35,123 bases of DNA from Deltaproteobacteria bacterium (GCA_030655955.1 JAUSOZ010000275.1:1-35123); one strand, 5' to 3'; positions 9,141-29,988 are shown, counted from the first letter of the stretch. The notes: a model not told the origin generated them from the sequence alone. Program-made: numbers and translations.

Positions 9141-9462
9141 GCTGTGAGCCGTCAGCCGTAAGATGAAAACGCACCAGCCGGAGCAGAAATTCCCCCCTTT
9201 TCTCAAGGGGGGCAGGGGGGATTAAAATAACCTCTCGATAATCCCCCTGAATCCCCCTTTAGGAAAGGGGGACTTGATCCCTTGCCCGGAATCAAGATCA
9301 ATGAGTTGGTGGGGCGGGCGTCTTCGCCCACCGCCTCTGGTGGCACAGGCTTCCCAGCCTGTGCGGACTAACTTTATCGGAGCCGCTTACCGTGAACCAT
9401 AAACAGAACTACCCTGGGCCACTCACGCTTTTACTGCTCACTGCTTACCGCTCACTGCTCAC
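9130..9462. repeat. Spacer between thiF and thiG bounded by a perfect 13-bp inverted repeat
   Basis: GTGAGCAGTGAGC (9130-9142) recurs inverted as GCTCACTGCTCAC (9450-9462). Between them lie C5/G5 palindromic blocks like those inside the MITE at 4214-4383 (9190-9272), a GGGCG/CGCCC hairpin (about 9308-9332) and a 29-bp palindromic element (9338-9366) found inverted after thiG. No gene is present in 9141-9477. Confidence 0.75.
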
Positions 9463-9477
9463 TCTCACGAGTCAATA

Positions 9478-10254: not shown

Positions 10255-10285
10255 AGCGGCACAGGCTTCAGGCTTGTTTGTGTAG

Positions 10286-10528
10286 GGTGGGCACTGCCCA
10301 CCGTCATCTCGTTCCCAAGCTCCAGCTTGGGAACGCAAATTTGGCCCGAGCTCCTGCTTGGACGACATGCCGTATCCACTCGTTCCCAAGTTGCACTTGG
10401 GAACGAAAATGGTTGCCAAGCTGAGCTTGGCGGGGAAGGCGTTCCCAAGCACAGCTTGGGAACGAGAAAGAAAAGGTAGGCGCAGGCTTTAGCCTGCGCC
10501 CGCACAGGCTGGGAAGCCTGTGCCACCA
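10286..10528. repeat. Array of seven perfect palindromes between thiG and thiH
   Basis: In order: GGTGGGCA/TGCCCACC (10286-10302); CGTTCCCAAGCT/AGCTTGGGAACG (10310-10335); CGTTCCCAAGT/ACTTGGGAACG (10381-10405); GCCAAGCT/AGCTTGGC (10415-10431); CGTTCCCAAGC/GCTTGGGAACG (10440-10464); GGCGCAGGCT/AGCCTGCGCC (10479-10500); GCACAGGCT/AGCCTGTGC (10502-10523). Three belong to the GTTCCCAAG family also seen at 6663. The last element (10500-10528) is an exact inverted copy of 9338-9366. Each is a separate hairpin, unlike CRISPR repeats. They resemble REP-type dispersed repeats; no REP transposase gene is in the window. Confidence 0.85.
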
Positions 10529-10541
10529 AAGATTTCACATA

Positions 10542-11717: not shown

Positions 11718-11784
11718 AAGGAGTAACAAAATTTGTTCTTCCTTTTCCCCTTTTCCCCTCTTAACCTTTTCCCCTTTTTCCCCA
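11686..11784. repeat. Long purine/pyrimidine inverted repeat at the end of thiH
   Basis: A run of GGGGAAAA-type blocks (about 11686-11730) is followed around ACAAAATTTGT (11726-11736) by CCCCTTTT-type blocks (to 11784). The two arms are complementary over most of their length and would fold into a long hairpin, with the thiH stop codon in the left arm. It may act as an attenuator between thiH and thiS. Confidence 0.7.
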
Positions 11785-11807
11785 AGGTCTAACAAGGGAG
11801 CTGGTTA

Positions 11808-12005
11808 GTGAAATTACAGGTTAATGGAGAATACCGGAAAGTAAGCGCGACAACAGTCTTCGACCTACTCACCGAACTGGGCCTGCACCCCCAGGGGACC
11901 ATCGTGGAGCGCAACCGGGAGATTGTGGAGCCCTCGGCCTACCGGGACACCCATTTGTCCGAGGGCGACGTCCTGGAACTGGTGCGCCTGGTGGGGGGCG
12001 GCTGA
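11808..12005 (+). CDS. thiS: Sulfur carrier protein ThiS
   Basis: A 65-residue ubiquitin-like carrier whose C-terminal glycine is adenylated by ThiF and converted to the thiocarboxylate that donates sulfur to the thiazole. It begins MKLQVNGEY and ends ELVRLVGGG, the required Gly-Gly tail. It starts with GTG at 11808 after an AAGGGAG site. The stop (TGA 12003-12005) shares one base with the ATG of thiE, so the two are translationally linked. It is the sulfur donor for ThiG, two genes upstream. Confidence 0.94.
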   Translation: MKLQVNGEYRKVSATTVFDLLTELGLHPQGTIVERNREIVEPSAYRDTHLSEGDVLELVRLVGGG

Positions 12006-12646
12006 TGGACCTGGCCCGGCGCCTGGCCGCCTTTGAGTACGCCGATCTCTACGTGGTCATCACGGAAGCCTTTTGCGCCGGCCGCACGTCGCTTACGGTT
12101 TTGGACCAGGTCCTGGCCGCGGGGGTGAAAATTGTGCAACTCCGGGAAAAGGACCTGGCAGACCGCAGCCTTTACGAACTGGCGTTGGAATTCCGCCGGC
12201 GCACTGAGGCTGCGGGGTCTTTGCTGATTATCGACGACCGGGTGGACATCGCCCTGGCCGCGGGGGCCGACGGGGTGCACCTGGGCCAGACGGACCTCCC
12301 CGTGGACGCGGCCCGCCGTATCGCCCCGGACCTCATTGTCGGCGCCTCTTCGCATTCCCTGGAAGAGGTGCTGGCGGCCCAGGCGGCCGGGGCCGGATAC
12401 GTTAATATCGGCCCCATCTTCCCCACCGCCACCAAGCCCAACGCTGTGGTTTTAGGGGTTGAGGCCATTCCACGCCTGACGCCGCATCTGAGGATTCCCT
12501 GGAGCACCATGGGCGGCATTAATGTAGGCAACATTGCCCAGGTGGTGGCCCAGGGAGCCCGGCACCCGGCGGTAATGAGCGCAGTCACGACGGCCGCGGA
12601 TGTTATGGCCGCGGCCCGGGCCTTAAGGGAGACGATCATCTCCTGA
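12005..12646 (+). CDS. thiE: Thiamin-phosphate synthase (first copy)
   Basis: Joins HMP pyrophosphate and thiazole phosphate to give thiamin phosphate. The 213-residue TIM barrel shows VQLREKDL, IDDRVDIALAAGADGVHLGQTDLP, VGASSHSLEEV, IGPIFPTATKPNA and a GGI phosphate-binding motif. The usual NDR is DDR here. The start overlaps the thiS stop by one base. Just at its 3' end a 10-bp unit, TCCTGACGAA, is tandemly repeated (12641-12660). A second family member follows thiM; one of the two may have a TenI-like or salvage role, and sequence reading does not settle which. Confidence 0.9.
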   Translation: MDLARRLAAFEYADLYVVITEAFCAGRTSLTVLDQVLAAGVKIVQLREKDLADRSLYELALEFRRRTEAAGSLLIIDDRVDIALAAGADGVHLGQTDLPVDAARRIAPDLIVGASSHSLEEVLAAQAAGAGYVNIGPIFPTATKPNAVVLGVEAIPRLTPHLRIPWSTMGGINVGNIAQVVAQGARHPAVMSAVTTAADVMAAARALRETIIS

Positions 12647-12775
12647 CGAATCCTGACGAAAAATTCGGCCCGACAAGCCACTCCCTCCAGGGTCCCTCCT
12701 GCCGCAGATTTCATTTGCTTTTGCCCCGCAGGCACATAAACTATAGAGTCAAAAAAAATTCACCAGGATCGGTTC

Positions 12776-13579
12776 ATGCCCACCATTAAGCTCAAAGCCT
12801 TTACCCTGCTGGAGAGAGTCCGGGAGCAAAGCCCGGTGATTCATCACCTGACCAACTGGGTCACCATCTATGACTGCGCCCAGGTGGTCAAAGTGCTGGG
12901 GGCCTCCCCGGTCATGGCGCATGCCCAGGAAGAGGTAGCGGAGATGGTCCAGCTTGCCGCCGCCCTGGTCCTCAACATCGGCACCCTGACGGTGCAGTTG
13001 GTCGAGGCCATGAAGCTTGCGGCCCGGGCCGCCAACGTCAGGGGGATTCCGGTGGTTTTGGACGTTTGCGGGGCCGGGGCCACCTCCTTCCGGGACCGGA
13101 CGTGCTTCGAGTTGTTGGACGAGGCCAGGATTGACCTCATTAAGGGCAACGCCTCGGAGGTGGCCCGGATCAGCGGGGCCCAGGTCCGGACCAAAGGGGT
13201 GGACGCCGCCCCGGTCGAAATAGACCTGGAAGCGGTGGCCCTGAGCCTGGCCCTAAAACGGAAGTGCACGGTGGTCATCACCGGTCCGGAAGACCTGGTT
13301 GTAGACGGCAGCCGGCGGTTTGTGGTCAAAAATGGCCACCCCCTCATGTCCCGGGTGGTGGGCACCGGCTGCATGGCGGCTTCGGTGATCGGCACCTTTG
13401 CCGCGGTGGAGTCGGACCTTGCCATAGCCGCGGCCGCGGGCCTGATCTGCTTAAATGTTGCAGCGGAGCTCGCGGCCGAACTCTCCCCGGGCCCCGGCAG
13501 CTTCAAGGTAAAACTCTTTGACTGCCTTGACGCCCTGGACGAGCCGACCCTGGCGGAGTTGCGGCGGGTGAGCGGATGA
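12776..13579 (+). CDS. thiM: Hydroxyethylthiazole kinase
   Basis: Salvages thiazole by phosphorylating 4-methyl-5-(2-hydroxyethyl)thiazole. The 267 residues of ribokinase-like fold show SPVIHHLTNWVTIYDCAQ at the N-terminus, VLDVCGAGAT (family: DPVGAGAT), LIKGNASEVARI, VVITGPEDLVVDG and VVGTGCMAAS with the catalytic Cys199. It is separated from thiE by 129 bp without a clear promoter or riboswitch; only a weak TATAGA (12742-12747) was seen. It ends 4 nt before the GTG of the second thiE, so those two are co-transcribed. The cell therefore seems able both to make and to recycle thiazole. Confidence 0.95.
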   Translation: MPTIKLKAFTLLERVREQSPVIHHLTNWVTIYDCAQVVKVLGASPVMAHAQEEVAEMVQLAAALVLNIGTLTVQLVEAMKLAARAANVRGIPVVLDVCGAGATSFRDRTCFELLDEARIDLIKGNASEVARISGAQVRTKGVDAAPVEIDLEAVALSLALKRKCTVVITGPEDLVVDGSRRFVVKNGHPLMSRVVGTGCMAASVIGTFAAVESDLAIAAAAGLICLNVAAELAAELSPGPGSFKVKLFDCLDALDEPTLAELRRVSG

Positions 13580-13583
13580 GCGG

Positions 13584-14219
13584 GTGAGGGGCTACTATTT
13601 CATCACCGAGGCAGCCCTGAGCCGGGCCGGGAACTTAAGCGACGTGGCCGCGGCGGTGGCCGCCGGGGTGCGAGTGGTGCAGTACCGGCAGAAGCAGGGC
13701 CGTACCCTGGATCTGGTGGCCGAGGCCCGGCAATTGCGGCAGATCTGCCGCCACATCCGGTTTTTGGTCAACGACCGGGTGGATCTCGCCCTGGAGGTGG
13801 GGGCCGACGGGGTGCACCTGGGCCAGGAGGACTTTTCATACTACGAGGCCCGGAACCTACTAGGCCCTGATAAAATCATCGGCGTCACGGTCCACACTGT
13901 GGCCGAAGCCCTGGCGGCCCAGGCCGCGGGAGCGGATTACCTGGGAGTGTCGCCCATCTTCAGCACCGCCACCAAGGGCGACGCCGGCGCCCCCGCCGGG
14001 GTGGCGCTCCTGGCCGAGATTCGCCGGTATGTGTCCCTCCCCCTGGTGGCCATCGGCGGCATCACTCTGGCCAATGCGCCGGCGGTCATCGCGGCCGGCG
14101 CCGACGCGGTGTGCGCCATCGCCGCGGTGGTCACCCGGCCCGAAGTCAAGGCGGAAATTGACCAGTTCCAGAAATTATTCTGCGGCAATCCGTCAATTTT
14201 TTGCAGGGCCGGGTCCTGA
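13584..14219 (+). CDS. Second ThiE/TenI-family protein
   Basis: A 211-residue TIM-barrel protein related to ThiE and to the thiazole tautomerase TenI. It shows VVQYRQKQG, VNDRVDLALEVGADGVHLGQED, IGVTVHTVAEAL, GVSPIFSTATKGDAGAP and IGGITLANA. The ThiE substrate-binding motifs look complete, so it is likely a thiamin-phosphate synthase serving the ThiM salvage branch; a TenI role is the alternative. It starts with GTG 4 nt after the thiM stop. Its 3' end overlaps the convergent SGNH gene by 27 bp, and the last 12 residues (GNPSIFCRAGS) look like an unselected extension. Confidence 0.85.
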   Translation: MRGYYFITEAALSRAGNLSDVAAAVAAGVRVVQYRQKQGRTLDLVAEARQLRQICRHIRFLVNDRVDLALEVGADGVHLGQEDFSYYEARNLLGPDKIIGVTVHTVAEALAAQAAGADYLGVSPIFSTATKGDAGAPAGVALLAEIRRYVSLPLVAIGGITLANAPAVIAAGADAVCAIAAVVTRPEVKAEIDQFQKLFCGNPSIFCRAGS

Positions 14220-16769: not shown

Positions 16770-19700
16770 TCACTCTGTCCCCCCCCTATCGAGTACTCTC
16801 TGCAATACTTTGCTCAAGTCTGCAACCCTATAGGGCTTAGCTATGACCCCGGAGAACCCATATTCTGTAAAGTTGGCCATTATCGGATCATCTGAATAAC
16901 CACTGGAGACTATGGCCTTTACCTGGGGATCGATCTGGAGAAGTTTCTCTATGGCTTCTTTGCCCCCTATGCCGCCCGGAACGGTGAGGTCCAGAATCAT
17001 GGCATCAATCGTCTGCCCCAGTTCTCGGGCCTGGATGAACTGTTCGATGGCTTCATCCCCATCCCTGGCAAACATCACCTCGTAGCCCAGATAGCCCAAC
17101 AACTTACCGAGAGTTTGCCGCACGATTTCCTCATCGTCCATCACCAATATCTTCCCTTGCCCGGTTACCACCTTTACTGTCTCTGGCAACGGCTCAATCT
17201 TGCTCTGGGCTGTAGCTGGCAGGTAGACGCGCACGGTCGTTCCGGCGCCTAATTGTGACTCCACGGCAATATGGCCCTGGTGATTTTTCACAATCGAATA
17301 GGCCGTGGCCAAACCCAGGCCGCTCCCCATTTGTTTGGTGGAAAAATAGGGGTCAAAGATTCTGGGGAGATACTCTGCCGGTATACCGATGCCTTGATCT
17401 TGAATGGTGGTCTGCACATATTTGCCGGGGTCCAGAGGCAGATCGCTCCCTGGCCCCACTTCCACATTTTCCCCCCGCACCTGGATCGTCCCTCCTGTGG
17501 GCATAGCTTGAATGGCATTGATGATCAGATTCTGAAAAACCTGGCTGATTTGGCCAGGATCTGCATTGACCCCCCAAATGCCTTCTGGAAAATCAAATTC
17601 GCATTTGACGTTTGAGCCCCGGGAGGCAAAGAATCCGGTTTCAGTGACTTTTTTTGCCAACGAGATCAGTTCCTTGATCGGTGCGCCGCCCTTGGCGAAG
17701 GTCAGCAGCTGCCGGGCCAAAGCCTGAGCTTGTATACAAGCCTTTTCAGCCTCGTTCAATATTAATCCGATGTACTCATTCCCCCGAAGGTCCAAGATCG
17801 CCAAGCTGATGTTGCCCATGATGGCGGTGAGGATATTGTTAAAGTCGTGGGCGATGCCTCCCGCCAGGGTAGCCAGGGACTCCAGTTTACTCAACCGCAA
17901 CCGTTCTATTTCACTTTTCTTGCGGTCGGTGATGTCGATCATTACCCCCACCAACCCGGCCAGGGCGCCTTGCGGGGTGAAGTAGGTCGCCTTATTGAAA
18001 TTGACATCATGCCTGGTGCCATCAGCGTGCAACATGGAATAATCGTATATCTGCACCCCGGGCTCCCGGAACAAGGCTGAATCCATGGCGCAGTACTTGT
18101 CGGCCATATCTTTGGGATACAGGTCGTACACCGTCCCCCCGATAATTTTATCTTTCGGCACGCCCATGAAATCACTGAGGGCCTGGTTGCAGCCCAAATA
18201 TACCCCTTCGACATCCTTATAAAAAATGGGGCTTGGAATAGTGTCCATCAGGGTTTGCAGGAAAGACAAATGGTATCGCAATGCTTCCTCGGCCTGGACC
18301 CGCGCCGTGACGTCTCTGAAACTCCAGACCCGGCCCACAATAGTGCTATCCAGATACTGGGGAATGGAATAGCGTTCAAACACCCGGCCATCTTTAAAAT
18401 AGAAGCTGTCTGAGCTTTCTGCGGCCGGCTGGGCATAGAGCTCCCTCACTTTCTGCAAGAAGCCCTGAGGTTCCGCCAGTTGATCCAGAGCCAAGGCTAA
18501 GGCGCGATCATCATCCCTGGTGGCGATAATCTCTTCGAGGATACCCCACATCTCTTCGAACTTTTTGTTCCAGCTCACCATCCGCCCTTGAAGATCAACC
18601 ACCAGGATGCCGTCGGCAGTGGACTCCAGGGTAGCTTTATAGAGGGAGAGAGATTCCTCCAAGGCGGCCTGAGCCTGCTTCTTTGCAGTGATATCCGTGA
18701 TGGTCCCGACCAGGCGCAGTGGCTTGCCATTCTCGTCATATTCGCCGCGCCCCAAGTTGGAGACCCAACGAACCTCGCCGCTGGGGTAGATGATGCGGAA
18801 CTCTTCCGTGAAAGCCGTCCTTTGGGCCAAGGCTTGCCCGGCCGATGCCATTGCCTGGCTCAGATCTTCGGGATGGATGAGTTTTTTGAAGGACTCCAGG
18901 TTGCCGTCAAAGCTCTCCACCCCAAAGATTTCGTAGCATTCCGGCGACCAGAAACAGGCTTCCGTGTGCACATTCCATTCCCAGACGCCCATTTGCGCTG
19001 CGGTCAGGGCCAGGTTGAGCCGTTCCTGGCTTTCCCGCCAGGCTCGCTCCGCGGCCTTGCGTGGCGAAATATCCCGGCACACACAAAATATCAGCTTTTG
19101 CCCGGCCAAGACGGCCCCGTTGGTGCTGATTTCAACCTCGAACCGCGTGCCGTCCTTGCGACGATGGACCGTCTCAAAGTGATCGCCCTCAGCATCAACG
19201 AGCCGGAGCATCTCCTGAATTTGCTCTCGGGGAAATTGTCCGTCCCAATCCCAGACGTGGAGTTGGCGCATTTCATCGGCGGAATACCCCAGCATCTCGG
19301 AAAATCGCCGGTTCGCCTCGAAGACCTTGCCGTTCTGATCCAGGACGACGATGCCGTCTCTGGACTGCTCCACCAGGAGACGTCGCCGGATCGCTTCCTG
19401 GGCCAGGGACTCCTCCAACTGCCTGGAGTCGGTGACATCAAAGACGACACCGCTGATATGCTCAATTCTCCCGGCGGCATTGCAGAATATCCGCCCCTGA
19501 CAATGGAGCCAGCGAATCTCCCCATCCTTTCTCCGGATGCGGTAATTTCGGCTGAAAGACCTGTCGGTCTTCAGGGCGTTAACGATAGCCTCTTGGGCCT
19601 GAGCCAGGTCTTCTTCGTGAATCAGCTCAGACCATTTGACCCGACGCGCATCGAAGTCTTCTTTACGGTAGCCGGTGAGCGCCTCAACTTTCCGATCAAG

Positions 19701-20603
19701 AAAATCCACGCTCCAATCCGGATAACCTTTAAAGACTACCGCCGGGATCTGTTGCACCAGCAGCCGGTATTTTGCCTCATTCTGCCGCAGCGCGTCCTCG
19801 GCCTGTTTTTGCCCGGTGATATCTTTGTCGGCCCCCCGATAACCCAGGAGATTGCCCTGTTCATCCAGGATGGGGACTCCGCTGGTCGATAGCCAAATAA
19901 TCTCCCCATTCTTGTGGAGGTTGCGATTGAGGAATTCGGTGAACGGCTGTTTGGCCGCGAATACCCCAAAAGCGGCTTCTTTCAGTTCTTCCCGCTCATC
20001 GTACGGGAACAGATCATAAAAATGTTTGCCGAGTATTTCCTCAGGCTTATAGCCCAGCAATTTCTCCACCACCGGGCTGGCGTAGGTGTATCTGCCCTGG
20101 GGGTCGACTTCCCAAACCCATTGCTGGGTGTTATCGGCAATATCCCTGAACCTCTTCTCGCTCTCCTTTAGAGCCGCCTCGACCCGCTTCCGGTCGCTGA
20201 TATCAAAGGCATAGTGCAGGAATAAGTCTGGTCCCACCGGTTGCCAATAGGCGTCCCATAAAGTGCCCAAGGCCTCCCATTCCTGGTGATGTGGGTCCCC
20301 GGTCTCCTGGAGAACAGAAGCGAGACACCACGGGCAAACATCTTCCCTCTGTCCCCAGGTGGCAAAACATTGGGTTCCGGGGCTGGCTCCAACTTTGGCC
20401 GCGGCCTGGTTAGCAGCGACGATGGTCCAGGTGGAAAGTCGAATCAGGAGGGCGATACAAGGGATGTTGTCCAGAAGGACCTTGTTTAAGTGATTCCTGT
20501 CAAAAAAATCCTCTTCGACGTTGCCATCAGATCTCACTTCCATGTTTGACCCCGTATCACTAGACCGGTACTGGGCGAGGGTTCCAGGTAGTGTCCCCTT
20601 CAT
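16770..20603 (-). CDS. Hybrid histidine kinase with seven PAS domains and a receiver
   Basis: A 1277-residue sensor without membrane segments, so probably cytoplasmic. Seven PAS units precede the kinase: about 36-138, 148-265, 275-392, 404-515, 525-642, 652-770 and 780-893. The first carries a cysteine cluster, C79 and C90-P-W-C93, like PAS domains suspected of binding metal or sensing redox. The phosphoacceptor region is LATLAGGIAHDFNNIL with His919. The ATPase domain shows the N box (NLIINAIQAM), DQGIGIP and GSGLGLA. The C-terminal receiver (about 1151-1273) has KILVMDDEE, acceptor Asp1205 in MILDLTVPGG, and the conserved KPY. No DNA-binding output is fused. The start at 20603 has no clear ribosome-binding site; ATG 20543, preceded by GGGG, is an alternative. 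Confidence 0.94.
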   Translation of the reverse strand: MKGTLPGTLAQYRSSDTGSNMEVRSDGNVEEDFFDRNHLNKVLLDNIPCIALLIRLSTWTIVAANQAAAKVGASPGTQCFATWGQREDVCPWCLASVLQETGDPHHQEWEALGTLWDAYWQPVGPDLFLHYAFDISDRKRVEAALKESEKRFRDIADNTQQWVWEVDPQGRYTYASPVVEKLLGYKPEEILGKHFYDLFPYDEREELKEAAFGVFAAKQPFTEFLNRNLHKNGEIIWLSTSGVPILDEQGNLLGYRGADKDITGQKQAEDALRQNEAKYRLLVQQIPAVVFKGYPDWSVDFLDRKVEALTGYRKEDFDARRVKWSELIHEEDLAQAQEAIVNALKTDRSFSRNYRIRRKDGEIRWLHCQGRIFCNAAGRIEHISGVVFDVTDSRQLEESLAQEAIRRRLLVEQSRDGIVVLDQNGKVFEANRRFSEMLGYSADEMRQLHVWDWDGQFPREQIQEMLRLVDAEGDHFETVHRRKDGTRFEVEISTNGAVLAGQKLIFCVCRDISPRKAAERAWRESQERLNLALTAAQMGVWEWNVHTEACFWSPECYEIFGVESFDGNLESFKKLIHPEDLSQAMASAGQALAQRTAFTEEFRIIYPSGEVRWVSNLGRGEYDENGKPLRLVGTITDITAKKQAQAALEESLSLYKATLESTADGILVVDLQGRMVSWNKKFEEMWGILEEIIATRDDDRALALALDQLAEPQGFLQKVRELYAQPAAESSDSFYFKDGRVFERYSIPQYLDSTIVGRVWSFRDVTARVQAEEALRYHLSFLQTLMDTIPSPIFYKDVEGVYLGCNQALSDFMGVPKDKIIGGTVYDLYPKDMADKYCAMDSALFREPGVQIYDYSMLHADGTRHDVNFNKATYFTPQGALAGLVGVMIDITDRKKSEIERLRLSKLESLATLAGGIAHDFNNILTAIMGNISLAILDLRGNEYIGLILNEAEKACIQAQALARQLLTFAKGGAPIKELISLAKKVTETGFFASRGSNVKCEFDFPEGIWGVNADPGQISQVFQNLIINAIQAMPTGGTIQVRGENVEVGPGSDLPLDPGKYVQTTIQDQGIGIPAEYLPRIFDPYFSTKQMGSGLGLATAYSIVKNHQGHIAVESQLGAGTTVRVYLPATAQSKIEPLPETVKVVTGQGKILVMDDEEIVRQTLGKLLGYLGYEVMFARDGDEAIEQFIQARELGQTIDAMILDLTVPGGIGGKEAIEKLLQIDPQVKAIVSSGYSDDPIMANFTEYGFSGVIAKPYRVADLSKVLQRVLDRGGTE

Positions 20604-21030
20604 ATTAAACTATAATATAAATAAATGACAATTAATAATTCAATAATTATTATCGGATCGACGATGCGGATAGAGTAATTTTTTCCTAAGATTCTTTTCC
20701 TGCCCTGCGGCAGGGGGATTTAATAATCCATAGGGGAAAAAGCTAGAAGTTATTACAAAACCCATTTTCTCCATCATCATTAACAACGGAGCTGATTAAT
20801 ATAACCTATTTACAATAATAGATTATTAGCTTCGTTTGGAATGGCTTTATCTCTGTGTCTGGGGTTTTACACCAGCTTGTAGCAGAAGCATGAAAAAAAA
20901 TCGGCTTTGGCAGACTCTCTCGTGAAAATATTTAACCTCGTGGGGGGGCAGCTATAGAAAATCTTTTGTTATTAAGATAATGAAGTTAGTTTTTTAATTG
21001 AATTAGCCTCTATCTTTGGCTCGTTTAAGC
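20604..21030. other. AT-rich 427-bp gap upstream of the hybrid kinase
   Basis: No open frame of note. The right side is the 3' flank of the cyclase and the left side should hold the kinase promoter on the minus strand (A+T-rich, with TTGTCA and TATATT-like boxes but no convincing pair). One hairpin was seen, CCTGCC/GGCAGG (20699-20714), without a T-run in either direction. Confidence 0.5.
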
Positions 21031-23277
21031 CTACTTTCCATCCATGATGGTCACGGCTTCCCAGTCATGGGCCGGGGGGGTCTCGTGGTGCTTTTGGGCC
21101 AGGGTGACGTAGCGCTGGCAGGTCTCGTCGCCGGGATGCAGTTCCAAGGCCTGGGCAAAGACGGGCAGGCACTCGGGGAAGTGTTTATCCCGGTAGAGGG
21201 CCAGGGCCCGGTGGTGTAACTCGAGGAAACGGGCCAGGTCCGGGTCCGGCTCGCCTTCTCCCAGCAATTCATGGATGCGGACCCCCTTGACCTTGCCTTT
21301 GACCCTTACCAAGTCCACGTCCCGGAGGATGAAGCCGCCTTCCAGAGCTTTGGCGGTGGTGTCGCTGATGAGGATGCTGGTGCCATAATATTTGTTGAGC
21401 CCCTCCAGGCGGGAGGCCAGATTGACGTTGTCGCCGATGGCGGTGTAGTCGAAGAGCCGGTCGGAGCCCATGTTGCCCACGGCAACCGGGCCGGTATTGA
21501 CCCCTACCCCGACCTTCAGGGGCGGGCGGCCCTGCTCGGCCCAGGTCCGGTTCAGGGCCGCCAGGCTGGCCACCATCTCCAGGGCGGCCCGGCAGGCCAA
21601 GTGAGGATGGTCCGTCTGCGTGAGGGGAGCCCCGAAGAGGGCCATGATGGCGTCGCCCATGTACTTGTCGATGGTCCCCCCCTGGTTGATGATGATGTTG
21701 CTCATGGGATTGAGGAAGTCGTGGAGGAGTTTTACCAGGGCCTCGGGGTCCAGGTTCTCCGACATCGTGGTGAAGCCCCGGATGTCGGTAAACAGCACGG
21801 TGATCTCCCGGCGCTCCCCTCCCAGGCGCAACTGCTCGGGGTGCTTCAGCATCTCCTGGACGACGGCGGGGGCCACGTAGGATTCAAAGGTCTTGCGGAT
21901 GCGCTCCCGCTCCCGTTCCTCCGCCAGGAACCGCTGCATGGTGACCCCCAGGTAAACCAGGACGATGAGGCCCAGGGGATAAAACAGTTCTAGCTGCAAG
22001 CCCTGCCGGGTGAACAGGAAATAGTTGAGACCCACATAGGCTTCTATGATGATGAGGATGAAGATGAAGGCCCAGGCGGCGGAGAACCGGGGCAGGACCA
22101 CGCCCAGCAGGACTGCCAAGGCCACCAGGACCAGCAGCATGATGATCAGACCGAAGGGTGGGGTACGGATGAAATTGCCGCGGAGCAGATTGTCCATGAT
22201 GGTGGCCTGGACTTCCACCCCGGGGAAGGTCCCGGAGAATGGCGTCACCCGGAGGTCGTAGATGCCCACGGCGGTGGCCCCGACGATGACGACCTTGTCC
22301 TTCAGGGCCTCGGCCGGCAGGGTGCCATTCATGACGTCGGCGGCGGAATAAGTGGGGATGATCCCCTCGGGGCCGAGGTAATTGATCAGCATGCGGCCAT
22401 ATCGGTCCACGGGCACCGTCCGCGGCCCCAGGCGAACCTCATCCACCCCCCACCGGGACAGGGTGATGGCCATGGGGGCCCGCGCTTCGGCGTGGGACAG
22501 GGTTACCAGGGCCATGGGGGCAAAGAACTCCCCGCCATACATGACGGCCATGGGAAACCAGCGCACGGTGCCGTCGGGATCGGGAATCATGTTGAAATAG
22601 CCGTCGCCGGCGCCGGCCTCGGTGATCTCCGGGAGATTGCGTTCGACCCCGGCGGCGCCGACCAACTGGACCTGGGAGGGTTTGGTGTCCAGGAGCCGCA
22701 CCACGTTATAGGTGGAGGCCCGGAGGAAAGAAGCTCCTACGAGCTTTTCCGCCTCAACCCCGCCGCTCTTGCCGCCCAAGCTCCGGAAAAAGAACCCCAG
22801 GATAGTGGGCGGGCCCTGCTTGAGGACCTTGGCCAGGAGACGGTCCACGTCGGCCCGATTTTTCTCCACCTCCAGGACTTTGAGGATCTCCGGCGAGACC
22901 CCCCGCCGGGCCAAGTCGTCGCTGAGATTCTTGAGGGCCTGGTACGATGCCGTTTGTTCCTTTTCGGCAAAAATGATGTCAAGGGCGATGACTCGGGGAC
23001 CGGCCTGTTTCAGCCGGGCAAGCATGCGGGCCATGTCCTCCCGGGACCAGGGCCAGCGGCCCACGGCCTTCAGGCTGTCGTCGTCAATGGCCACGATGGC
23101 TACTTGTTGGCCGGCCGCTATAGGGCCCCGGAATCGGAATTTGAGATCGTAGAGCTTGAGTTCGAGAAACTCGCAGAAGGTGGGACGCCAGATGAGCAGG
23201 GCGCACATCACCAGAGTGACGCCGACAATCCATCGGGCGATGGGCGACTTAACGAAAGCGGCCAGGCGGCGTATCAT
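21031..23277 (-). CDS. CHASE2-domain adenylate cyclase with C-terminal TPR-like tail
   Basis: Inner-membrane receptor making cyclic nucleotide from ATP. The 748 residues contain an N-terminal membrane segment (about 13-30), a periplasmic CHASE2 sensor (about 35-370, with IVAIDDDSL, ALDIIF and VVIVGATAVGIYDLR), three transmembrane helices (about 375-448), a helical linker, and a class III cyclase domain (about 490-670). Metal-binding Asp498 (LFTDIRGF) and Asp542 (YMGDAIMAL) are present. Lys538 and Asp610 at the base-selecting positions predict ATP as substrate, and Asn619/Arg623 are the transition-state pair. The last 70 residues resemble a TPR pair (FLELHHRALALYRDKHFPEC). CHASE2 cyclases and FecR-domain proteins are often neighbours, and here a FecR gene lies just upstream. 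Confidence 0.94.
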   Translation of the reverse strand: MIRRLAAFVKSPIARWIVGVTLVMCALLIWRPTFCEFLELKLYDLKFRFRGPIAAGQQVAIVAIDDDSLKAVGRWPWSREDMARMLARLKQAGPRVIALDIIFAEKEQTASYQALKNLSDDLARRGVSPEILKVLEVEKNRADVDRLLAKVLKQGPPTILGFFFRSLGGKSGGVEAEKLVGASFLRASTYNVVRLLDTKPSQVQLVGAAGVERNLPEITEAGAGDGYFNMIPDPDGTVRWFPMAVMYGGEFFAPMALVTLSHAEARAPMAITLSRWGVDEVRLGPRTVPVDRYGRMLINYLGPEGIIPTYSAADVMNGTLPAEALKDKVVIVGATAVGIYDLRVTPFSGTFPGVEVQATIMDNLLRGNFIRTPPFGLIIMLLVLVALAVLLGVVLPRFSAAWAFIFILIIIEAYVGLNYFLFTRQGLQLELFYPLGLIVLVYLGVTMQRFLAEERERERIRKTFESYVAPAVVQEMLKHPEQLRLGGERREITVLFTDIRGFTTMSENLDPEALVKLLHDFLNPMSNIIINQGGTIDKYMGDAIMALFGAPLTQTDHPHLACRAALEMVASLAALNRTWAEQGRPPLKVGVGVNTGPVAVGNMGSDRLFDYTAIGDNVNLASRLEGLNKYYGTSILISDTTAKALEGGFILRDVDLVRVKGKVKGVRIHELLGEGEPDPDLARFLELHHRALALYRDKHFPECLPVFAQALELHPGDETCQRYVTLAQKHHETPPAHDWEAVTIMDGK

Positions 23278-23669
23278 GGGTAGGACCTAAATCCATCGAA
23301 GTCATGGGCCGGTGTCCCACCAAGGCCTGCCCTGAGGATTAAAGCTGACCCTCCCCTAAAGGTATGGCTTGGTGGGCTCGGTCCACAAGGGACTGCCGGC
23401 ATCATAAGGGGATACGAGGGAGAAGTAAATAATTTTAGAAGGCCCGTCGAAAATATTGCCGCGCCAGGAAGGCAAGACTCGCAATTTCCTGGCTGAATGC
23501 CGTTCCCCGGCGGGGACGGCGCCATCTCTTCCCTGCCGGGCTAAGGGTGGGGCGATGCGCTTATGGCAGCCTCACTTCCGGCGCCCCTTCCCGAGCTTTC
23601 CGCGTCCAGCCCGGGAAGGGGCAAAGAATCTAACCGCCTCTCATAGGTAATAATCCCGTTGAGCCCGAA
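23278..23669. other. 392-bp gap between fecR-type gene B and the CHASE2 cyclase
   Basis: Holds a strong 10-bp hairpin, CCCCTTCCCG (23584-23593) with CGGGAAGGGG (23612-23621), 48 nt after the end of FecR gene B on the minus strand. It lacks a T-run. A second hairpin of about 10 bp (GCCGTTCCCC/GGGGACGGC type) lies at about 23500-23522. No gene was seen. Confidence 0.55.
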
Positions 23670-24611
23670 TCATTGGGGGGAGATGTAGGTCTGGGAGGAC
23701 TGATGGGTCGGCTCAGGGGGGGGCGGCGGCGGCGGCGGCGGCGGGACCTGGACCTGAGGCACCAGTTTGGGCGGGACCGTGATGGTAGTCAGGTTGTTTA
23801 CGGTGTTCTGGCTCCCCGGCAGATAGAGGCCGACCGGGTGGTTTGAGCCAGAGCCCGACTGGGTCACCGGGATTCCCGGGGCGTGGTGTCCACCCGGAAG
23901 GGCGGCATAGGTAGTGAGCTGACGCATGAACAGCATCTGGTCTTGGGGAGTGATACCAAAGGGCACGGTCGGGAGCAGATTACGGCCCACTGTGGTCCCC
24001 TGCATATCGTGCAAAAGCACCCACCGGCTGGAGCCATTGTTCCACGAGCCTGCGGAGAAGGCCACTTTGAAGGCCTTGAGGAACAGGCGGCTCACCTCCG
24101 GAAAGATATTGCCCACCTGGGTGCGGCCTTGAAAATTGAGAATCGTGGAACTATTGGGCTGATTACGCATACCGATCTCGGTACCTCTCACCCCCATGAC
24201 TGCGGTCTGGGTCTTGATGACGAAATCCGGCTCCTCGGCCTTCAAGATTTTGTTGACCACGGCCAGGGCCAGCCCCTGAAAGATCTCCAATACCGCCTGG
24301 CGTTTCCCCTGACCGGGTTCGAACTTGAACGCCTCGATGGCAATGCGGGCTTCCTGGGATAAGGTCAGGAGAGAATCGTCGATAAAGGTTATCTGGGCCT
24401 TGGACAGGGACTTGGTGCGGATGACATCCCCGGGCTCCACCGTATCTCCTACCTTGAGGGCCACGGCGGGCAGTTTGCCGCCTTTCAGGAGATCCACCCG
24501 ACCTTCCACCTGGGTCAGACGGCCCACGACCTCGGCCCCGGCAACGGTTGAGAATATCAGCATCAGAGCGAGGGCGACCCACCCAGACATCAGGACCTGA
24601 CGCAGCTTCAT
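23670..24611 (-). CDS. FecR-domain periplasmic protein with polyproline tail (copy B)
   Basis: A 313-residue secreted protein: signal peptide 1-26 (ending VAGA), then a FecR/LysM-like beta domain (about 28-150) with VEGRVDLLKGGKLPA, GDVIRTKSLSKAQITFIDDS and KTQTAVMGVRGTEIGM. A middle region of unknown fold follows (TQVGNIFPEVSRLFLKAFKV), then a Gly/Ser/His-rich linker and a run of prolines near the C-terminus before EPTHQSSQTYISPQ. FecR domains of this kind occur in envelope-signalling proteins outside iron uptake; no sigma factor or TonB receptor is nearby. It is a clear paralogue of the FecR gene at 27098. A GGGGGG site precedes the ATG, and a short hairpin (GACCTG/CAGGTC, 24635-24650) lies in its leader. 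Confidence 0.88.
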   Translation of the reverse strand: MKLRQVLMSGWVALALMLIFSTVAGAEVVGRLTQVEGRVDLLKGGKLPAVALKVGDTVEPGDVIRTKSLSKAQITFIDDSLLTLSQEARIAIEAFKFEPGQGKRQAVLEIFQGLALAVVNKILKAEEPDFVIKTQTAVMGVRGTEIGMRNQPNSSTILNFQGRTQVGNIFPEVSRLFLKAFKVAFSAGSWNNGSSRWVLLHDMQGTTVGRNLLPTVPFGITPQDQMLFMRQLTTYAALPGGHHAPGIPVTQSGSGSNHPVGLYLPGSQNTVNNLTTITVPPKLVPQVQVPPPPPPPPPPEPTHQSSQTYISPQ

Positions 24612-25020
24612 GTTCCCCCCTTTTTTCCTCAGAAGACCTGACTGCAGGTCGGTTTTGAGTCGGGACCGAGCCGAAGTTAAGGCAAACTCAGCCCCCTATC
24701 CAGCATTATCGGCAGGGTTGATTATTTTCTTGATTTTTGGGGGGATCACCGCGGTTCACCTTGGAGCGCATCCGGTTTTCTGGACCCCAGGTTTTTTAAG
24801 CTTTCCGGGCGAAGGAGTTCTGGAGGCGCCACCGGTCCATGACAGGTCGGGCCAGATGGTAAGTATCTCTATGATATTTATCATGAAAATCGACAGGAGC
24901 CGAGAATCTCGGCGGCAGATGGAGAAGAGGAGCAGGTGGCTTTACCGTCAAAAACCTCGGCCCCGTTATCCAGGGGACAACGGGGCCGAGGCAAACCTCC
25001 GGGCCTCCGAAGCTATTCAG
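24612..25020. other. 409-bp gap between VWA gene and FecR gene B
   Basis: Contains the VWA-gene terminator (24950-24991), a leader hairpin of FecR gene B (24635-24650) and a perfect palindrome, ATGATA-TT-TATCAT (24871-24884), that could be a regulator site. No gene is present. Confidence 0.6.
24950..24991 (-). terminator. Strong intrinsic terminator after the VWA/LytM-like gene
   Basis: A perfect 13-bp stem, CCTCGGCCCCGTT (24955-24967) with AACGGGGCCGAGG (24979-24991), is followed on the minus strand by TTTTT (24950-24954). It lies about 30 nt after the VWA-gene stop and separates that gene transcriptionally from FecR gene B. Confidence 0.9.
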
Positions 25021-26802
25021 CTAATAGCCGATTTGGGGGGGGGCGTCATCATCGAGCAACAACAATAACAAGCCTTCCAGGTGGGCGGCGTTGGGCAGCC
25101 AGAGTCCCAGTTTGTAAGGGTCCACCACGTTTTGGTGGTCGATGCCGTTATAGCGCACCTCGAAATGCAGGCGATCTTTAATGGTGCTGGGGTCAGCGGC
25201 AGCAACGTGGCCGATGATCTGCCCCCTGGTCACCTGGGCATACCCGTCGGGGTTGGCGCTTATCTCCGCCAGGATAGCGGGGGTCAAGGGGGCGTAAAGG
25301 TACCAGGAGTAGTAGCCGTTTTGATGGTCGATGTAGGAATTCTGGTAATAGTCATAACCGGCGCCGTTAACCGGATCGATCACGGCTTTATAAAGCTTGC
25401 CGTCGGCGGTGGCCAATACCGGCGTACCCGCGGGCACATCATAGTTGTAACCGGGATTGCCGGCATAGGAAAGGTAGGCGCCGTTGATGTAGTTAAGCGG
25501 ACGCACGCCCGCAATGGAGGGCGGGAAGAAGTCGGTGCCGGTGCTGTTCTTGTAAGCCGGCCAGTAGAGGCCATAGGGATCCAGATAGATAAACCCGTAT
25601 TGTTTTTTGCCGATTTCACCGTTAAATGCTTTGATCACGTTGGCGGGGACGTAAAACTCTATGGGGATCCGCTCCAGCACGGAGTTGTCCATTACCGCGC
25701 TCACCGGGGCGGTGAAGGGAGTTAAGCCCGGCAAGGGGAAGCCCAGCCCCAGCAACCCTCCAACCTGAATATTATCCTGTTCAGTAGCCATGGTCCCCCC
25801 ATCTACCAGGACCGGGATGGTAAAACTATAAGAACCGGGGGAGACTGCGGTAAAAGTCACGTCAAAGGTGAAGATGCGATCCATGCTGCGATCATATGCG
25901 CCCATATAGGACGGCGGGACAACATTGACTGTCAGGCCGGTGGGCACCATGGACGTGCCTAAGCGAACGGTGCTGTAAGTTTGAAAAGAATTGATAATGG
26001 CATTCTGGATATCATCGACAATCTGAGAAATGATTACGGTGGGATAATACGTTCCGCCGGTGGCGTCGGCAATGCTTTGGGCCTGACCATAATAGTCTAA
26101 CTCGCCAGGATCACCTGACGACGTTGGAACATTAAGGGCCATCACTTTAATCGTTTGGGCAACTAAAGCGGCGGTGGCTTGTGCCTCGTTAACTCCCACA
26201 GAGGGATCGTGGCCCGGGGCATCCCCGAACCAGATGATGATACGGGTGGAACCTTCTCGCCAGGCAACATTGCTGGCCACCTGATACAGGGCATATAGTT
26301 GACCCTCCGCCCAGTCTTCGCCCCCGCTCGCAACCCAAGCGTTTATCCCGTTTTGAACATCAGTCTTATTATCAGTGATGTCCTGGTTCAGCCGATAAAC
26401 AAAAGGGTCGTATGCGTTAAAATCCTTATATTCACCCACGCCGTAGGCTACATCTCCCAGTCCGGAGGTGCCGGCCATAATTTCGGCCGCTCCGGACTTG
26501 ACGGCGGCAAGCGTTTCGCCCATGCTGCCGGTAGTGTCGGCCAGGAAGAAGATGTCAACCTTGGCGGAAGTGGGTGTCCCGGCGCTGATGGTTACGGTTT
26601 TGGTAATAGTGACGCTTTGTCCCGGCTTCAAAGAGGTGGCGTAACTCGATGGAACGACGGTATCGCCCCCCATACTAACGGCCAGGACATTAACCGGGAT
26701 CAGCAGTACTAACAAGGCAAAAAACGCCGAACCTGCCAGACCTAAAAGAGCCATCACACACGTCAAAGCTCCGCCACAAAATTTTGAGGCTTTACTTTTC
26801 AT
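25021..26802 (-). CDS. Exported VWA protein fused to a degenerate LytM/M23-like domain
   Basis: A 593-residue protein with a long hydrophobic signal or anchor (about 10-42). A von Willebrand A domain spans about 80-285. Its metal site reads DTTGSMG (D89, T91, S93), with a further Asp in IIIWFGDAPGHDP. A beta-sandwich-like stretch (about 285-380) follows. The C-terminal domain (about 455-580) resembles LytM/M23 peptidases: YDVPAGTPVLATADGKL, SYIDHQNGYYSWYLYAPL, VTRGQIIGHV and DRLHFEVRYNG. Key residues are lost, however: the first zinc-ligand His is absent before YD, YAHL is YAPL, and HLHFE is RLHFE. It is therefore probably non-catalytic, like EnvC/NlpD domains that activate amidases or bind peptidoglycan. 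It is flanked by two FecR paralogues; AGGAGG lies before the ATG. Confidence 0.85.
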   Translation of the reverse strand: MKSKASKFCGGALTCVMALLGLAGSAFFALLVLLIPVNVLAVSMGGDTVVPSSYATSLKPGQSVTITKTVTISAGTPTSAKVDIFFLADTTGSMGETLAAVKSGAAEIMAGTSGLGDVAYGVGEYKDFNAYDPFVYRLNQDITDNKTDVQNGINAWVASGGEDWAEGQLYALYQVASNVAWREGSTRIIIWFGDAPGHDPSVGVNEAQATAALVAQTIKVMALNVPTSSGDPGELDYYGQAQSIADATGGTYYPTVIISQIVDDIQNAIINSFQTYSTVRLGTSMVPTGLTVNVVPPSYMGAYDRSMDRIFTFDVTFTAVSPGSYSFTIPVLVDGGTMATEQDNIQVGGLLGLGFPLPGLTPFTAPVSAVMDNSVLERIPIEFYVPANVIKAFNGEIGKKQYGFIYLDPYGLYWPAYKNSTGTDFFPPSIAGVRPLNYINGAYLSYAGNPGYNYDVPAGTPVLATADGKLYKAVIDPVNGAGYDYYQNSYIDHQNGYYSWYLYAPLTPAILAEISANPDGYAQVTRGQIIGHVAAADPSTIKDRLHFEVRYNGIDHQNVVDPYKLGLWLPNAAHLEGLLLLLLDDDAPPQIGY

Positions 26803-27097
26803 AGTATCCTCCTGGTATCGCTCCGTTGCCCAGATGGCGGAATTCGAAACTCGTGACGGCCTGGCCCGCGCCGCGTTGTGCCTGCCTTTATGGTGGGACC
26901 GCCGGCCATCAAAAAACGCCAGTAAGCAAGCCCAGCCGGCATTGCCAAATTGTTATCCACCATTACCAGAATCATCTTGAGGTCTTACTGATCCCAACAG
27001 CCTCTAAGGGCGCCAAACGAGAGGGGATTAAGAGGCAAATCGTATCATTGCCGCTCGGCTTCATAAGCCCCTTTATTTCCTGCATCCAACATCCCCA
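26803..27097. other. 295-bp gap upstream of the VWA gene
   Basis: Leader of the VWA gene and 3' flank of FecR gene A. A 17-nt stretch at 26828-26844 resembles the 5' end of tRNA-Leu but has no matching 3' half. No gene, convincing promoter or riboswitch was recognised. Confidence 0.45.
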
Positions 27098-28117
27098 TCA
27101 CCGCGGCGGATGTGGAGGCAAAGGCGAGGGTGGCGGCGGCGGCGGTGGCGGCGGTGGTGGTGCTACCACAATGGGGGCGACTACCGGAGGGGTGACCACG
27201 CCCACAGGGTTTCCGGCTATGGTGGAATCAAGGGGAATGATCGCTCCGGTCCCCGGCTGATTTATGCTGAGAAACCCGCTGCCGGGAACGGTACCGTCGC
27301 CACCGGGGATGCCGCCGCCAATGCCGATAGCGCCAACGCCGGCGGTGACGCCAACGCCGGCGGTGACGCCACCGCCACCAGTGGCGCTACCGCCACCGGG
27401 GCCCCGGCTGCCCAAAGTACTGAACAGATCCATGAAGGAAGTCTTCATGGCAGGGGTAACGGCAAAGACCGCACTGGGAGGCAGACCTCGGCCCACCGAG
27501 GTGCCCTGCATAGCCTTCAAGAACACCCATTGCTGACCACCCGCGCCTCCGGAGCTAAAGGAGTAGGCAACCTTGAAGGCCCGGCGGAACAGTTGGCTCA
27601 CCTCGGGGAGAATATTGCCCACCTGGAGGAGGCCCTCAAAATTCAAAACGTCCGAACTGTTGGGATAGATGCGAACCCCGAAGTCGGTGCCCCTCACCCC
27701 CATAATGGCGGTTTGGGTCTTGACGACAAAATCCGGTTCGGCGGCCTTGAAGATCTTGCTGACCGCCACGTGGGCCAGGCCCTGGAAGAGTTGGACCACG
27801 GCACTGCGCTTATTCTTGGCGGAGTCGAACATATAGGCTTCGATACCTACCCGGCTCTCGGGGGAAATCGTCATGGTGGAATTATCGATAAAGGTGATCT
27901 GGGCCTTGGACAGGGACTTGGTCCGGAGTACATCGCCTATTTGCACCCCATCATTCAACTTAACCGCGATGGCCGGAAGCTTCCCGCCTCTCAGTATGTC
28001 GACCCTGCCTTCCACCTGCGTCAGGTGTCCCACCACGTCCGCCTGGGCGCTGGTAAGCGTCCCCACCTGGAATGCCAGGATCACGAGTACCACCCAAAAG
28101 AATGCAGACTTTCTCAT
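27098..28117 (-). CDS. FecR-domain periplasmic protein with glycine-rich linker and polyproline tail (copy A)
   Basis: A 339-residue paralogue of the FecR gene at 23670. Signal peptide 1-26 (ending AQA), then a FecR domain with VEGRVDILRGGKLPA, GDVLRTKSLSKAQITFIDNS and VKTQTAIMGVRGTDFGV. The conserved middle region LLQVGNILPEVSQLFRRAFKV is followed by WVFLKAMQGTSVGRGLPPSA. The linker is a Gly/Val-rich low-complexity stretch (GVTAGVGVTAGVGAIGIGGG) encoded partly by an 18-bp tandem repeat near 27331-27372. The protein ends in an 11-proline run and SPLPPHPPR. The polyproline tail could reach through the periplasm or dock on partners (inference). AAAGGAG precedes the ATG; a GGCGGTC/GACCGCC hairpin (28166-28181) lies in the leader. 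Confidence 0.88.
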   Translation of the reverse strand: MRKSAFFWVVLVILAFQVGTLTSAQADVVGHLTQVEGRVDILRGGKLPAIAVKLNDGVQIGDVLRTKSLSKAQITFIDNSTMTISPESRVGIEAYMFDSAKNKRSAVVQLFQGLAHVAVSKIFKAAEPDFVVKTQTAIMGVRGTDFGVRIYPNSSDVLNFEGLLQVGNILPEVSQLFRRAFKVAYSFSSGGAGGQQWVFLKAMQGTSVGRGLPPSAVFAVTPAMKTSFMDLFSTLGSRGPGGGSATGGGGVTAGVGVTAGVGAIGIGGGIPGGDGTVPGSGFLSINQPGTGAIIPLDSTIAGNPVGVVTPPVVAPIVVAPPPPPPPPPPPSPLPPHPPR

Positions 28118-28437
28118 AAATCGGGCTCCTTTGGTGAGCTGGGTCAGCAGCGTCTCCCCAAGCGCGGCGGTCAGGACCGCCTGCCTAAGTCTATTTTAAC
28201 TAAATTTAATTAAAAATTAAATAAATCAAATTGAGAGTTAATTAAATTATAAACCATCCCGACAACTTTCCCCTTGCAGGAGATTCGGGGAAAATGCCAG
28301 GGCAATTGGTAAGCGCCGCATCACCGCAGGCTGGTCGACGGAGATAGACAACCGGGGTGATTCAGGTGAACTGGAGAGATAGTGGGCAATTAACCGGGTG
28401 CTACGAATGCTCAATCTTTTTCGCCAGGTACCTCCCG
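28118..28437. other. 320-bp gap between TPR/barrel gene and FecR gene A
   Basis: Contains the leader hairpin GGCGGTC/GACCGCC (28166-28181) and a very A+T-rich block (28195-28252). On the minus strand the block offers a perfect TATAAT (28246-28251 on the plus strand as ATTATA) without a good -35 box. A promoter for FecR gene A is likely here. No gene was seen. Confidence 0.5.
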
Positions 28438-29988
28438 TTAGTACCGGTACGCCAACTGGCCGCCGGCGATGTGACGGCTATAGTTATACAAATCGATGTT
28501 GGAGTTGTCCCGGATAAAGTACCAATGGATCCCGGCTTCCAGGCCTTTGCAAAGTTCATAAGAGAACTGCATCCCAAACATCAGAATTTGGTCCCGCCGT
28601 TTGGGTTGGGGGATCAGGGGCGCGCCCTGGACGTTGCCGACAGTCGCACCGTTGTACCAGGTGTTGGCAAACGGCTGCTGCGTGAGGTCCAGCCACATAT
28701 TGTATTTTAACTTGTCGGTGATGGGCCAGAGCAACGACAGGAGCAGATTGTAGCTGTTGCTGTCCCAGTTGTCGCCCTTGGTGTTGTTGTTCCAATAGCC
28801 GAGGCGGGCCTGGACAAATCCCTTTTGCTTTTTGAAAAAGTAATACATCCCCACATTGCCGCCCCAGAGATTGCCGCTGCGGTTTTCCTGGATAAGGAAC
28901 TGGGGGGTCCAAAAATGCTGGTTATTAAACTTGGCTCCCACTTCCAGGCCGATTTTCTCGGTGACCTGATGGAGATAGGTGGGGGTCACCAGGTAGCCGG
29001 TGTAGTACTTGTCTGACGCCAGGTCCATATAGGTATAATTCACCGGCAGCCAGAAGCGGCCATTCTTGAAGGCATAGGTGGGGGTCAGGCCGATGCAGTG
29101 GGTCATGATGTCGTACGTTGGCACCGCGAAGTGAAAATTCTGGAAATAGGAGTATTGGGTCAAAAGGCTGAAGGGACCGGCGGGCAAGATGGTGTATTCC
29201 AGCAGGGCGGTTTGAAAAGATACACCGCTGGCCTTCCCGGAAACCCCGGTCACTTCGCCCCCTCCACCAGGAGAGAGGGTGACGTTGGAGTCGTAATCAA
29301 AGCCTGACGAGACGGTGATGCGGAAGGGACGCTGCTCATCCGCCCGCTGGGCCAGGATCCCCATGTAACGCTTGGCGAAATCAGCGGTCTGGCTCTGGGG
29401 GTTAAGGGCAATGCTCTCGGCCATGGCCTGCTTGGCTTCTTTGACCCGGTTGAGGGCGGCCAGGGCCAGGCTCGCCTGGAACTTGGCCTCCTGGGCCACC
29501 TTGGGCTCGGCCTCGGCCTTACGGAAATAATCCAGGGCTTCGCTATAGTTGCCCTCTTTGGTGGCCACGACGCCCAGCAAAAAGGCAGTCTGCCCCGGCT
29601 CGTACCCGGCGGCCAGCAGATTCTGCAAGATGGGTTTGGCTTCTTTGGACTGGTTGAGGGCCAGTAACGTGTCGGCCAGCATTAATTGCGCCGGACGAAA
29701 ATCCGGCTTGAGCCGCAGGGCTTCCTGCAAATATTCTTTGGCCTTGGCGTAATTAAGCATGAGCCGGTAAACCTGGCCAAACATAAAAGCTTTTTCCGGA
29801 GTGTGCGTGCCTTTGTTCCAGGCATCGCTCAAGGCCACCAAGGCTTCGTCGTAATTCTCCTGTTGAATGTCCTTGGCCGCCTGCTGCACCAATACGTCGT
29901 CATAAGGCGTAATTGCCAGGCTCGGCTGGGTTCCCAGCGCGAGCATCAAGACCATCCATCCCAGGATTAAAAGTGTACGCCAGGCCAT
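28438..29988 (-). CDS. Outer-membrane beta-barrel protein with N-terminal TPR domain
   Basis: A 516-residue protein with signal peptide 1-25 (ending SLA). Tetratricopeptide repeats fill about 30-215 (ENYDEALVALSDAWNKG, NYAKAKEYLQEALRLKPDF, GNYSEALDYFRKAEAEP). From about 224 to the end it is a predicted beta-barrel with alternating aromatic strands (SGFDYDSNVTLSPGGG, LLTQYSYFQNF, GMYYFFKKQKGFVQARLGYW), ending in an aromatic strand QLAYRY typical of outer-membrane insertion. The TPR-plus-barrel plan resembles Slam-like lipoprotein translocators and PgaA-type polysaccharide porins; which of these applies is open. It is the first gene of the minus-strand envelope run, with GGGGGGG just before the ATG, and is divergent from phoU. 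Confidence 0.85.
   Translation of the reverse strand: MAWRTLLILGWMVLMLALGTQPSLAITPYDDVLVQQAAKDIQQENYDEALVALSDAWNKGTHTPEKAFMFGQVYRLMLNYAKAKEYLQEALRLKPDFRPAQLMLADTLLALNQSKEAKPILQNLLAAGYEPGQTAFLLGVVATKEGNYSEALDYFRKAEAEPKVAQEAKFQASLALAALNRVKEAKQAMAESIALNPQSQTADFAKRYMGILAQRADEQRPFRITVSSGFDYDSNVTLSPGGGGEVTGVSGKASGVSFQTALLEYTILPAGPFSLLTQYSYFQNFHFAVPTYDIMTHCIGLTPTYAFKNGRFWLPVNYTYMDLASDKYYTGYLVTPTYLHQVTEKIGLEVGAKFNNQHFWTPQFLIQENRSGNLWGGNVGMYYFFKKQKGFVQARLGYWNNNTKGDNWDSNSYNLLLSLLWPITDKLKYNMWLDLTQQPFANTWYNGATVGNVQGAPLIPQPKRRDQILMFGMQFSYELCKGLEAGIHWYFIRDNSNIDLYNYSRHIAGGQLAYRY

Follow-up and report, generated by a model that had tools for sequence, protein, structure and literature searches.

A barrel, FecR and CHASE2 cyclase locus of Desulfobacterota as a probable split NsrA/CyaK-type transenvelope cAMP pathway

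Introduction

Few inputs are known for CHASE2, a sensor domain common among bacteria. To our knowledge the one worked case is the NsrA-CyaK pair of rhizobia, legume root symbionts in which a one-protein outer-membrane receptor turns on cAMP synthesis. Here, we asked what is encoded between positions 16770 and 29988 of a contig from a sediment deltaproteobacterium, where six consecutive minus-strand genes place a CHASE2 cyclase near a TPR protein with a putative barrel, two FecR proteins, a VWA protein with an M23 (LytM) domain, and a multi-PAS kinase. A first-pass annotation of this DNA had proposed an envelope machine reporting through cAMP and phosphotransfer, but gave it no name. Among known systems NsrA/CyaK comes closest, and on balance we think that the cluster is probably a split version of this type of transenvelope cAMP pathway with a lineage-specific surface partner. 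Such a pathway would represent a way of reporting outside events to the cell interior that is widespread but unstudied in bacteria.

Results

The window that was analyzed is one whole contig of 35,123 bp from a genome of 3.5 Mb in 323 contigs. All six minus-strand open reading frames were recovered by a codon-bias gene call at the coordinates first reported for them, and Pfam confirmed the domains that had been named in each. Four of the products, P0003 to P0006, carry N-terminal signal peptides by inspection. An intrinsic terminator, consisting of an 18-bp GC-rich stem followed by TTTTT, lies on the minus strand between the VWA-M23 gene and the second FecR gene (24954..24992). It folds at -37.5 kcal/mol, compared with -19.8 ± 3.2 for shuffled sequences, and was not called by a generic terminator scan of the window. 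The strong terminator that had been suspected to split the cluster is therefore borne out, and it leaves the barrel, FecR1 and VWA-M23 genes on one side and the FecR2 and cyclase genes on the other. A second stable hairpin (23583..23622, minus strand, -35 kcal/mol), which has no T run, separates FecR2 from the cyclase. Intergenic gaps within the cluster measure 295–427 bp, making internal promoters likely, and together with the terminator they argue against a single operon. A search for RNA elements gave no Rfam match anywhere in the window.

The outermost gene of the cluster encodes P0006 (28438..29988, minus strand), for which the presence of a barrel had previously been only a guess. The AlphaFold model, built with 18 sequences (pLDDT 86), supports it: behind the signal peptide, TPR helices (residues ~28–218, also matched by Pfam) are followed by a predicted 14-stranded outer-membrane β-barrel (222–515), and the chain ends in AYRY. 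In Foldseek searches with this model, BcsC was the top match overall and OmpG was among the best barrels, while the sequence-level PDB matches were TPR proteins. A barrel profile search found orthologues in 60 of 395 Desulfobacterota genomes. Desulfobacca species are among the named relatives, as is 'Deltaproteobacteria bacterium CG07_land_8_20_14_0_80_60_11', which suggests that the source belongs to the Desulfobacca lineage of Desulfobacterota or close to it. P0006 gave no tblastn match to a plasmid collection that included pSymB.

The genome contains only three FecR genes, two of which are found at this cluster. Both P0005 (FecR1; 27098..28117, minus strand; Pfam FecR 5e-15) and P0003 (FecR2; 23670..24611, minus strand; 6e-12) are exported FecR-domain proteins with polyproline tails. 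These tails, first noted by eye, are real, with 47% and 63% proline in the richest 30-residue stretch, and that of FecR1 ends in PPHPPR. The modeled core of FecR1 (residues ~31–170, pLDDT mostly 90 and more) belongs to family PF04773 and finds its best PDB match in the cell-surface-signaling domain of PupR (Foldseek E 1.7e-7); a Parabacteroides anti-sigma protein is also matched. FecR-type domains may, in addition, serve as anchors of surface proteins, as hinted by two weak matches: FecR1 aligns locally with 5ix9, an anchoring domain of the cell surface (64 columns, 1.4 Å, E 0.011), and FecR2 has a sub-threshold hit to a retention module of the LapA type.

Beyond its core, FecR is variable. 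Among relatives in the window's order the C-terminus is either a short proline-rich tail or additional β-rich domains. The long FecR tails of G001, a genome of the same genus, leave no remnant in the window DNA by tblastn, and the short polyproline forms therefore do not look like broken genes; frameshifted C-termini were rejected on this ground. The FecR proteins adjoining the barrel are often giant (750–2413 residues), some with Ig-like repeats. We also observed a conserved C-terminal domain of ~210 residues in the giant proteins, ending in G(S/T)FSGTAAGV and shared by L173, L175, L181-L184, L187, L191, L195, L199 and L205; a TbpB-like nature was considered for this domain and rejected, as neither Pfam nor the PDB gave a match. 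Separately, G002 and G003 each have a contig that stops within FecR polyproline codons (first bases of L081 and L082). Such tails may thus interrupt assemblies, and counts of the locus may be too low.

In nearly all relatives in the order, the barrel orthologue sits beside a FecR gene, and barrel and FecR are also both present in G024. Outside the order, we surveyed the surroundings of the barrel gene at 37 loci in other families. Barrel and FecR were adjacent, with no more than one or two genes between them, at 33 of these, or 33 of the 34 that can be evaluated, three of the four remaining loci running off their contig. At fewer than half of the loci (14/37, spread over nine families), a CHASE2 cyclase was located less than 6 kb from the barrel. 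The chance of a nearby cyclase is roughly 1–3% per locus. At a generous 3%, the probability is ~1e-12 by loci and 6e-8 by families, values that are indicative only, given kinship; the number of families tested, 27, is an estimate. Tight same-strand barrel-FecR-CHASE2 runs also occur on contigs of Binatota and Myxococcota, namely L139 and L138, the latter with genes 5 and 13 bp apart. On this comparative evidence, barrel, FecR and CHASE2 cyclase belong together.

In roughly 20 loci of relatives from the same order, FecR, TPR and barrel are joined in a single chain of ~1210–1250 residues, with a barrel ending in ALYF, and the gene often adjoins a CHASE2 cyclase. The single-chain form has no strong match in G000-G003, the first of which is the window's own genome, and in the window the receptor is split. 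Used as a query, one single-chain protein led to rhizobial plasmids, a Methylocystis pair, and the annotated nsrA-cyaK of S. meliloti. By Pfam, NsrA of S. meliloti (CP140934) has a FecR domain at 66–160 and TPRs up to ~587, and the barrel is reported at 600–1200 (PMC7529298). CyaK, whose gene is overlapped by nsrA, is composed of CHASE2 and a cyclase domain (Pfam, CP140934). An alignment of P0013 with NsrA reached 22–25% only. FecR, TPR and outer-membrane barrel parts and a CHASE2 class III cyclase are thus present in both systems; in contrast to NsrA-CyaK, the window encodes FecR and the TPR-barrel as separate genes, has FecR duplicated with polyproline tails, and adds the VWA/dead-M23 protein. 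The proposal that FecR and CHASE2 recur as a pair is hence supported by neighborhoods, by fusions beside CHASE2 cyclases, and by the known NsrA/CyaK pair. Both NsrA and CyaK are needed for the response to a protein signal from outside the cell (PMC7529298; PMC13001267). The pair is the only functional precedent, and by analogy it is what the mechanism proposed below rests on.

The cyclase of the window, P0002 (21031..23277, minus strand), combines a CHASE2 periplasmic sensor, membrane helices and a class III nucleotidyl cyclase (Pfam CHASE2 3e-63, Guanylate_cyc 1e-25). Aligned with CyaK, it shows 33% identity across 689 columns. The two proteins agree in the FTDIRGF, DKYMGD and VNLASR regions, and the cyclase motifs of this active relative are kept. 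Four cNMP-binding proteins are encoded in the genome. Outside the genus, orthologues of P0002 in the window's order lie beside fabD, phoU, purA or other genes and not beside barrel or FecR; the P0002 orthologue and barrel/FecR occur together in the order only in G000 and G001, and in G002, of the same genus, the cyclase is apart from FecR. The gene-neighborhood comparison on which the first-pass annotation had staked its idea therefore gave a mixed answer, in that the adjacency of barrel, FecR and VWA-M23 is conserved, whereas the window's cyclase orthologues are mostly elsewhere in the order. In a tree whose sampling favored linked cyclases, the clade containing P0002 (95/92) takes in linked cyclases from outside the family and from outside the phylum. 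The linkage may be ancestral and since lost, or it may have been regained.

The last of the six genes encodes P0001 (16770..20603, minus strand), a soluble hybrid histidine kinase with several PAS domains, HATPase_c and Response_reg by Pfam. A search at E 1e-150 returned no match to it in G001-G008, nor is there one at the locus elsewhere, and in G001 the genes past the cyclase differ from those of the window. P0001 is probably a neighbor unrelated to the system.

P0004 (25021..26802, minus strand; Pfam VWA_4 2e-7, Peptidase_M23 2e-10) is an exported protein that joins a VWA domain with a DxTxS MIDAS-like motif to a conserved, degenerate C-terminal M23 module (~345–577) and a hydrophobic LLLLLL tail. 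The description of the LytM domain as dead proved correct. For the zinc ligands H, D and H and the catalytic H of M23/LytM, P0004 has N, N and RxH: aligned with zoocin A, it carries Asn in place of both the ligand His and the ligand Asp (GNPGYNY instead of GHxGxDY), and HLH has become RLH. Judged by these residues, the module is catalytically dead. The C-terminal module is constant, and the N-terminus may be a VWA domain, a β-propeller with DUF11, InlB-type repeats, or an unassigned domain. At E 1e-10, the module was found in 5 of 395 genomes of the phylum; these belong without exception to the window's family and carry it next to barrel and FecR. G019 and G021, of the same family, have it as well. 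The gene is therefore accessory, confined to a few genera of one family. With regard to the LLLLLL tail, LLL near the C-terminus is kept in close relatives and missing in the G019 and G021 forms.

The presence of the M23 module tracks the end of FecR. All seven loci with the module have a FecR ending in PPR (FecR1 in the window), compared with none of the 12 read-through loci that lack it (Fisher 2e-5, not corrected for kinship). G020, which has the PPR tail on a contig cut at the barrel, lies outside both groups. Both module states occur within one genus (G000 versus G001; G009/G017 versus G018), which makes the link between module and PPR tail more than inheritance. The GC3 of the VWA-M23 gene is 0.64, compared with 0.71–0.84 in the exported and cyclase neighbors, and its identity to G010 at four-fold sites is 0.70, against 0.50 for the barrel and 0.46 for FecR1. 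Together, the low GC3 and high identity suggest that the gene has moved laterally.

Discussion

Of the envelope machine originally envisaged, the envelope and cAMP parts are well supported by neighborhoods, fusions and the NsrA/CyaK pair. Two other parts fall away: phosphotransfer, as P0001 lacks a strong orthologue even in same-genus G001, and the unity of the six genes, which are split by a terminator and include an accessory one.

We infer the physical contacts, the direction of signaling, the cAMP output and the role of the VWA-M23 protein as follows. The P0006 barrel with its periplasmic TPR arm would be an outer-membrane receptor or pore. P0005 and P0003 would act as periplasmic relays, in which the FecR fold binds the partner in the outer membrane, like PupR/FecR, and the stiff polyproline tail extends into the periplasm, a periplasm-reaching rod by analogy with TonB. 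The signal would then reach P0002, the inner-membrane cyclase, at its periplasmic CHASE2 domain, and the cAMP that it makes would serve regulators of the CRP type. The VWA/dead-M23 protein would be a lineage-specific, exchangeable binding subunit at the surface or in the periplasm, and a partner of the polyproline-tailed FecR.

Elements of this arrangement are found in other known systems. The FecR fold is shared with FecA-FecR-FecI and PupB-PupR, where it is thought to relay from an outer-membrane barrel. Unlike these, the window has no TonB-dependent receptor, its gene list contains no ECF sigma gene, and the FecR domains of P0003 and P0005 follow directly on the signal peptide without a cytoplasmic anti-sigma part. 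The same set of parts occurs in a Campylobacterota cluster of CHASE2 cyclase, phosphodiesterase, FecR outer-membrane protein and TPR protein, which are proposed to act in one pathway (PMC9239204). In contrast to that cluster, from a different phylum, the window joins barrel and TPR in one chain, keeps FecR separate, and has no recognized phosphodiesterase among the neighbors. Finally, an operon of Burkholderia and Pseudomonas also places a periplasmic (LysM-)FecR protein beside a CHASE2 sensor; its output is a histidine kinase, and no barrel is reported (PMC5192318).

An alternative that we regard as unlikely, though with some evidence behind it, is that the TPR-barrel is foremost an exporter, type XI/Slam-like or BcsC-like, of FecR-anchored and VWA/M23 proteins to the surface, with FecR as a periplasmic retention plug and a cyclase that only regulates. 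An N-terminal TPR domain with a 14-strand barrel, as modeled for P0006, is the architecture of Slam (PMC8406197), and BcsC, the model's best overall PDB match, is a polysaccharide exporter. The giant size, Ig-like repeats and common C-terminal domain of many barrel-adjacent FecR proteins would suit exported cargo, as would the constant C-terminus and variable N-terminus of the VWA-M23 proteins, which resemble type XI cargo; the weak 5ix9 match of FecR1 points to anchoring. However, the Slam barrel family PF04575 has no Pfam match at the locus, for which reason membership in type XI secretion was rejected, and TbpBBD and other known cargo domains were not found. Moreover, NsrA, the characterized relative in architecture, is a receptor. 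The exporter reading and the split NsrA/CyaK reading are compatible and do not exclude each other.

A more speculative and rather doubtful extension would combine the two. Here, FecR would be a shared periplasmic plug that holds surface partners in the TPR-barrel and reports their occupancy or tension to the CHASE2 cyclase, so that surface display and touch sensing would be joined in one system across Desulfobacterota. In many families the partners held would be giant C-terminal extensions, and here the exchangeable VWA/dead-M23 protein clamped to the PPHPPR tail, with the dead M23 domain reused as a proline-tail receptor.

It is improbable that the cyclase lies beside FecR and barrel by an accident of synteny, barrel and cyclase each favoring the phoU-hrcA-grpE-dnaK vicinity and having met in the window's genus. 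Such separate placements do exist, since the cyclase is between fabD and phoU without barrel or FecR in G018 and G009, and the barrel is by phoU without a cyclase in G010 and G011. Against this stand the recurrence of the trio in nine other families and in other phyla, and the FecR-TPR-barrel fusion proteins beside CHASE2 cyclases.

Dead LytM domains are known amidase activators, and P0004 has likewise lost its M23 zinc ligands, yet the notion that it regulates a peptidoglycan amidase in the style of EnvC or NlpD, within a cluster monitoring cell-wall turnover, is very improbable, as its exchanged N-termini better suit ligand binding or surface display and no amidase is in the window gene list. 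Pycsar defense was also considered and rejected: the similarity to PycC covers the cyclase domain only, P0002 has CHASE2, and no effector was recognized in the window gene list.

If the split NsrA/CyaK reading holds, the separate receptor, relay and cyclase of many environmental anaerobes would make the CHASE2 input approachable outside symbiosis, and the FecR-TPR-barrel proteins, annotated only as 'FecR domain-containing', would gain a role. The co-occurrence of a dead M23 domain with a proline tail would offer a natural experiment.

Further observations concern the surroundings of the cluster and its FecR genes. Positions 8358-14219 of the window hold a thiamin gene cluster, assigned by eye as thiF-like, thiG, thiH, thiS, thiE, thiM and a second thiE, with no TPP riboswitch match in the Rfam search of the whole window. 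The third FecR gene of the genome (G000:C103:22579-23091) also has a proline-rich tail, and no barrel was seen in the surrounding stretch that was read. In G001, the DNA of the FecR pair (L080:8670-13598) is 94–98% identical in windows starting at codons 31–91, compared with ~70% for the window's pair, a pattern indicating recent gene conversion between the tandem copies of G001.
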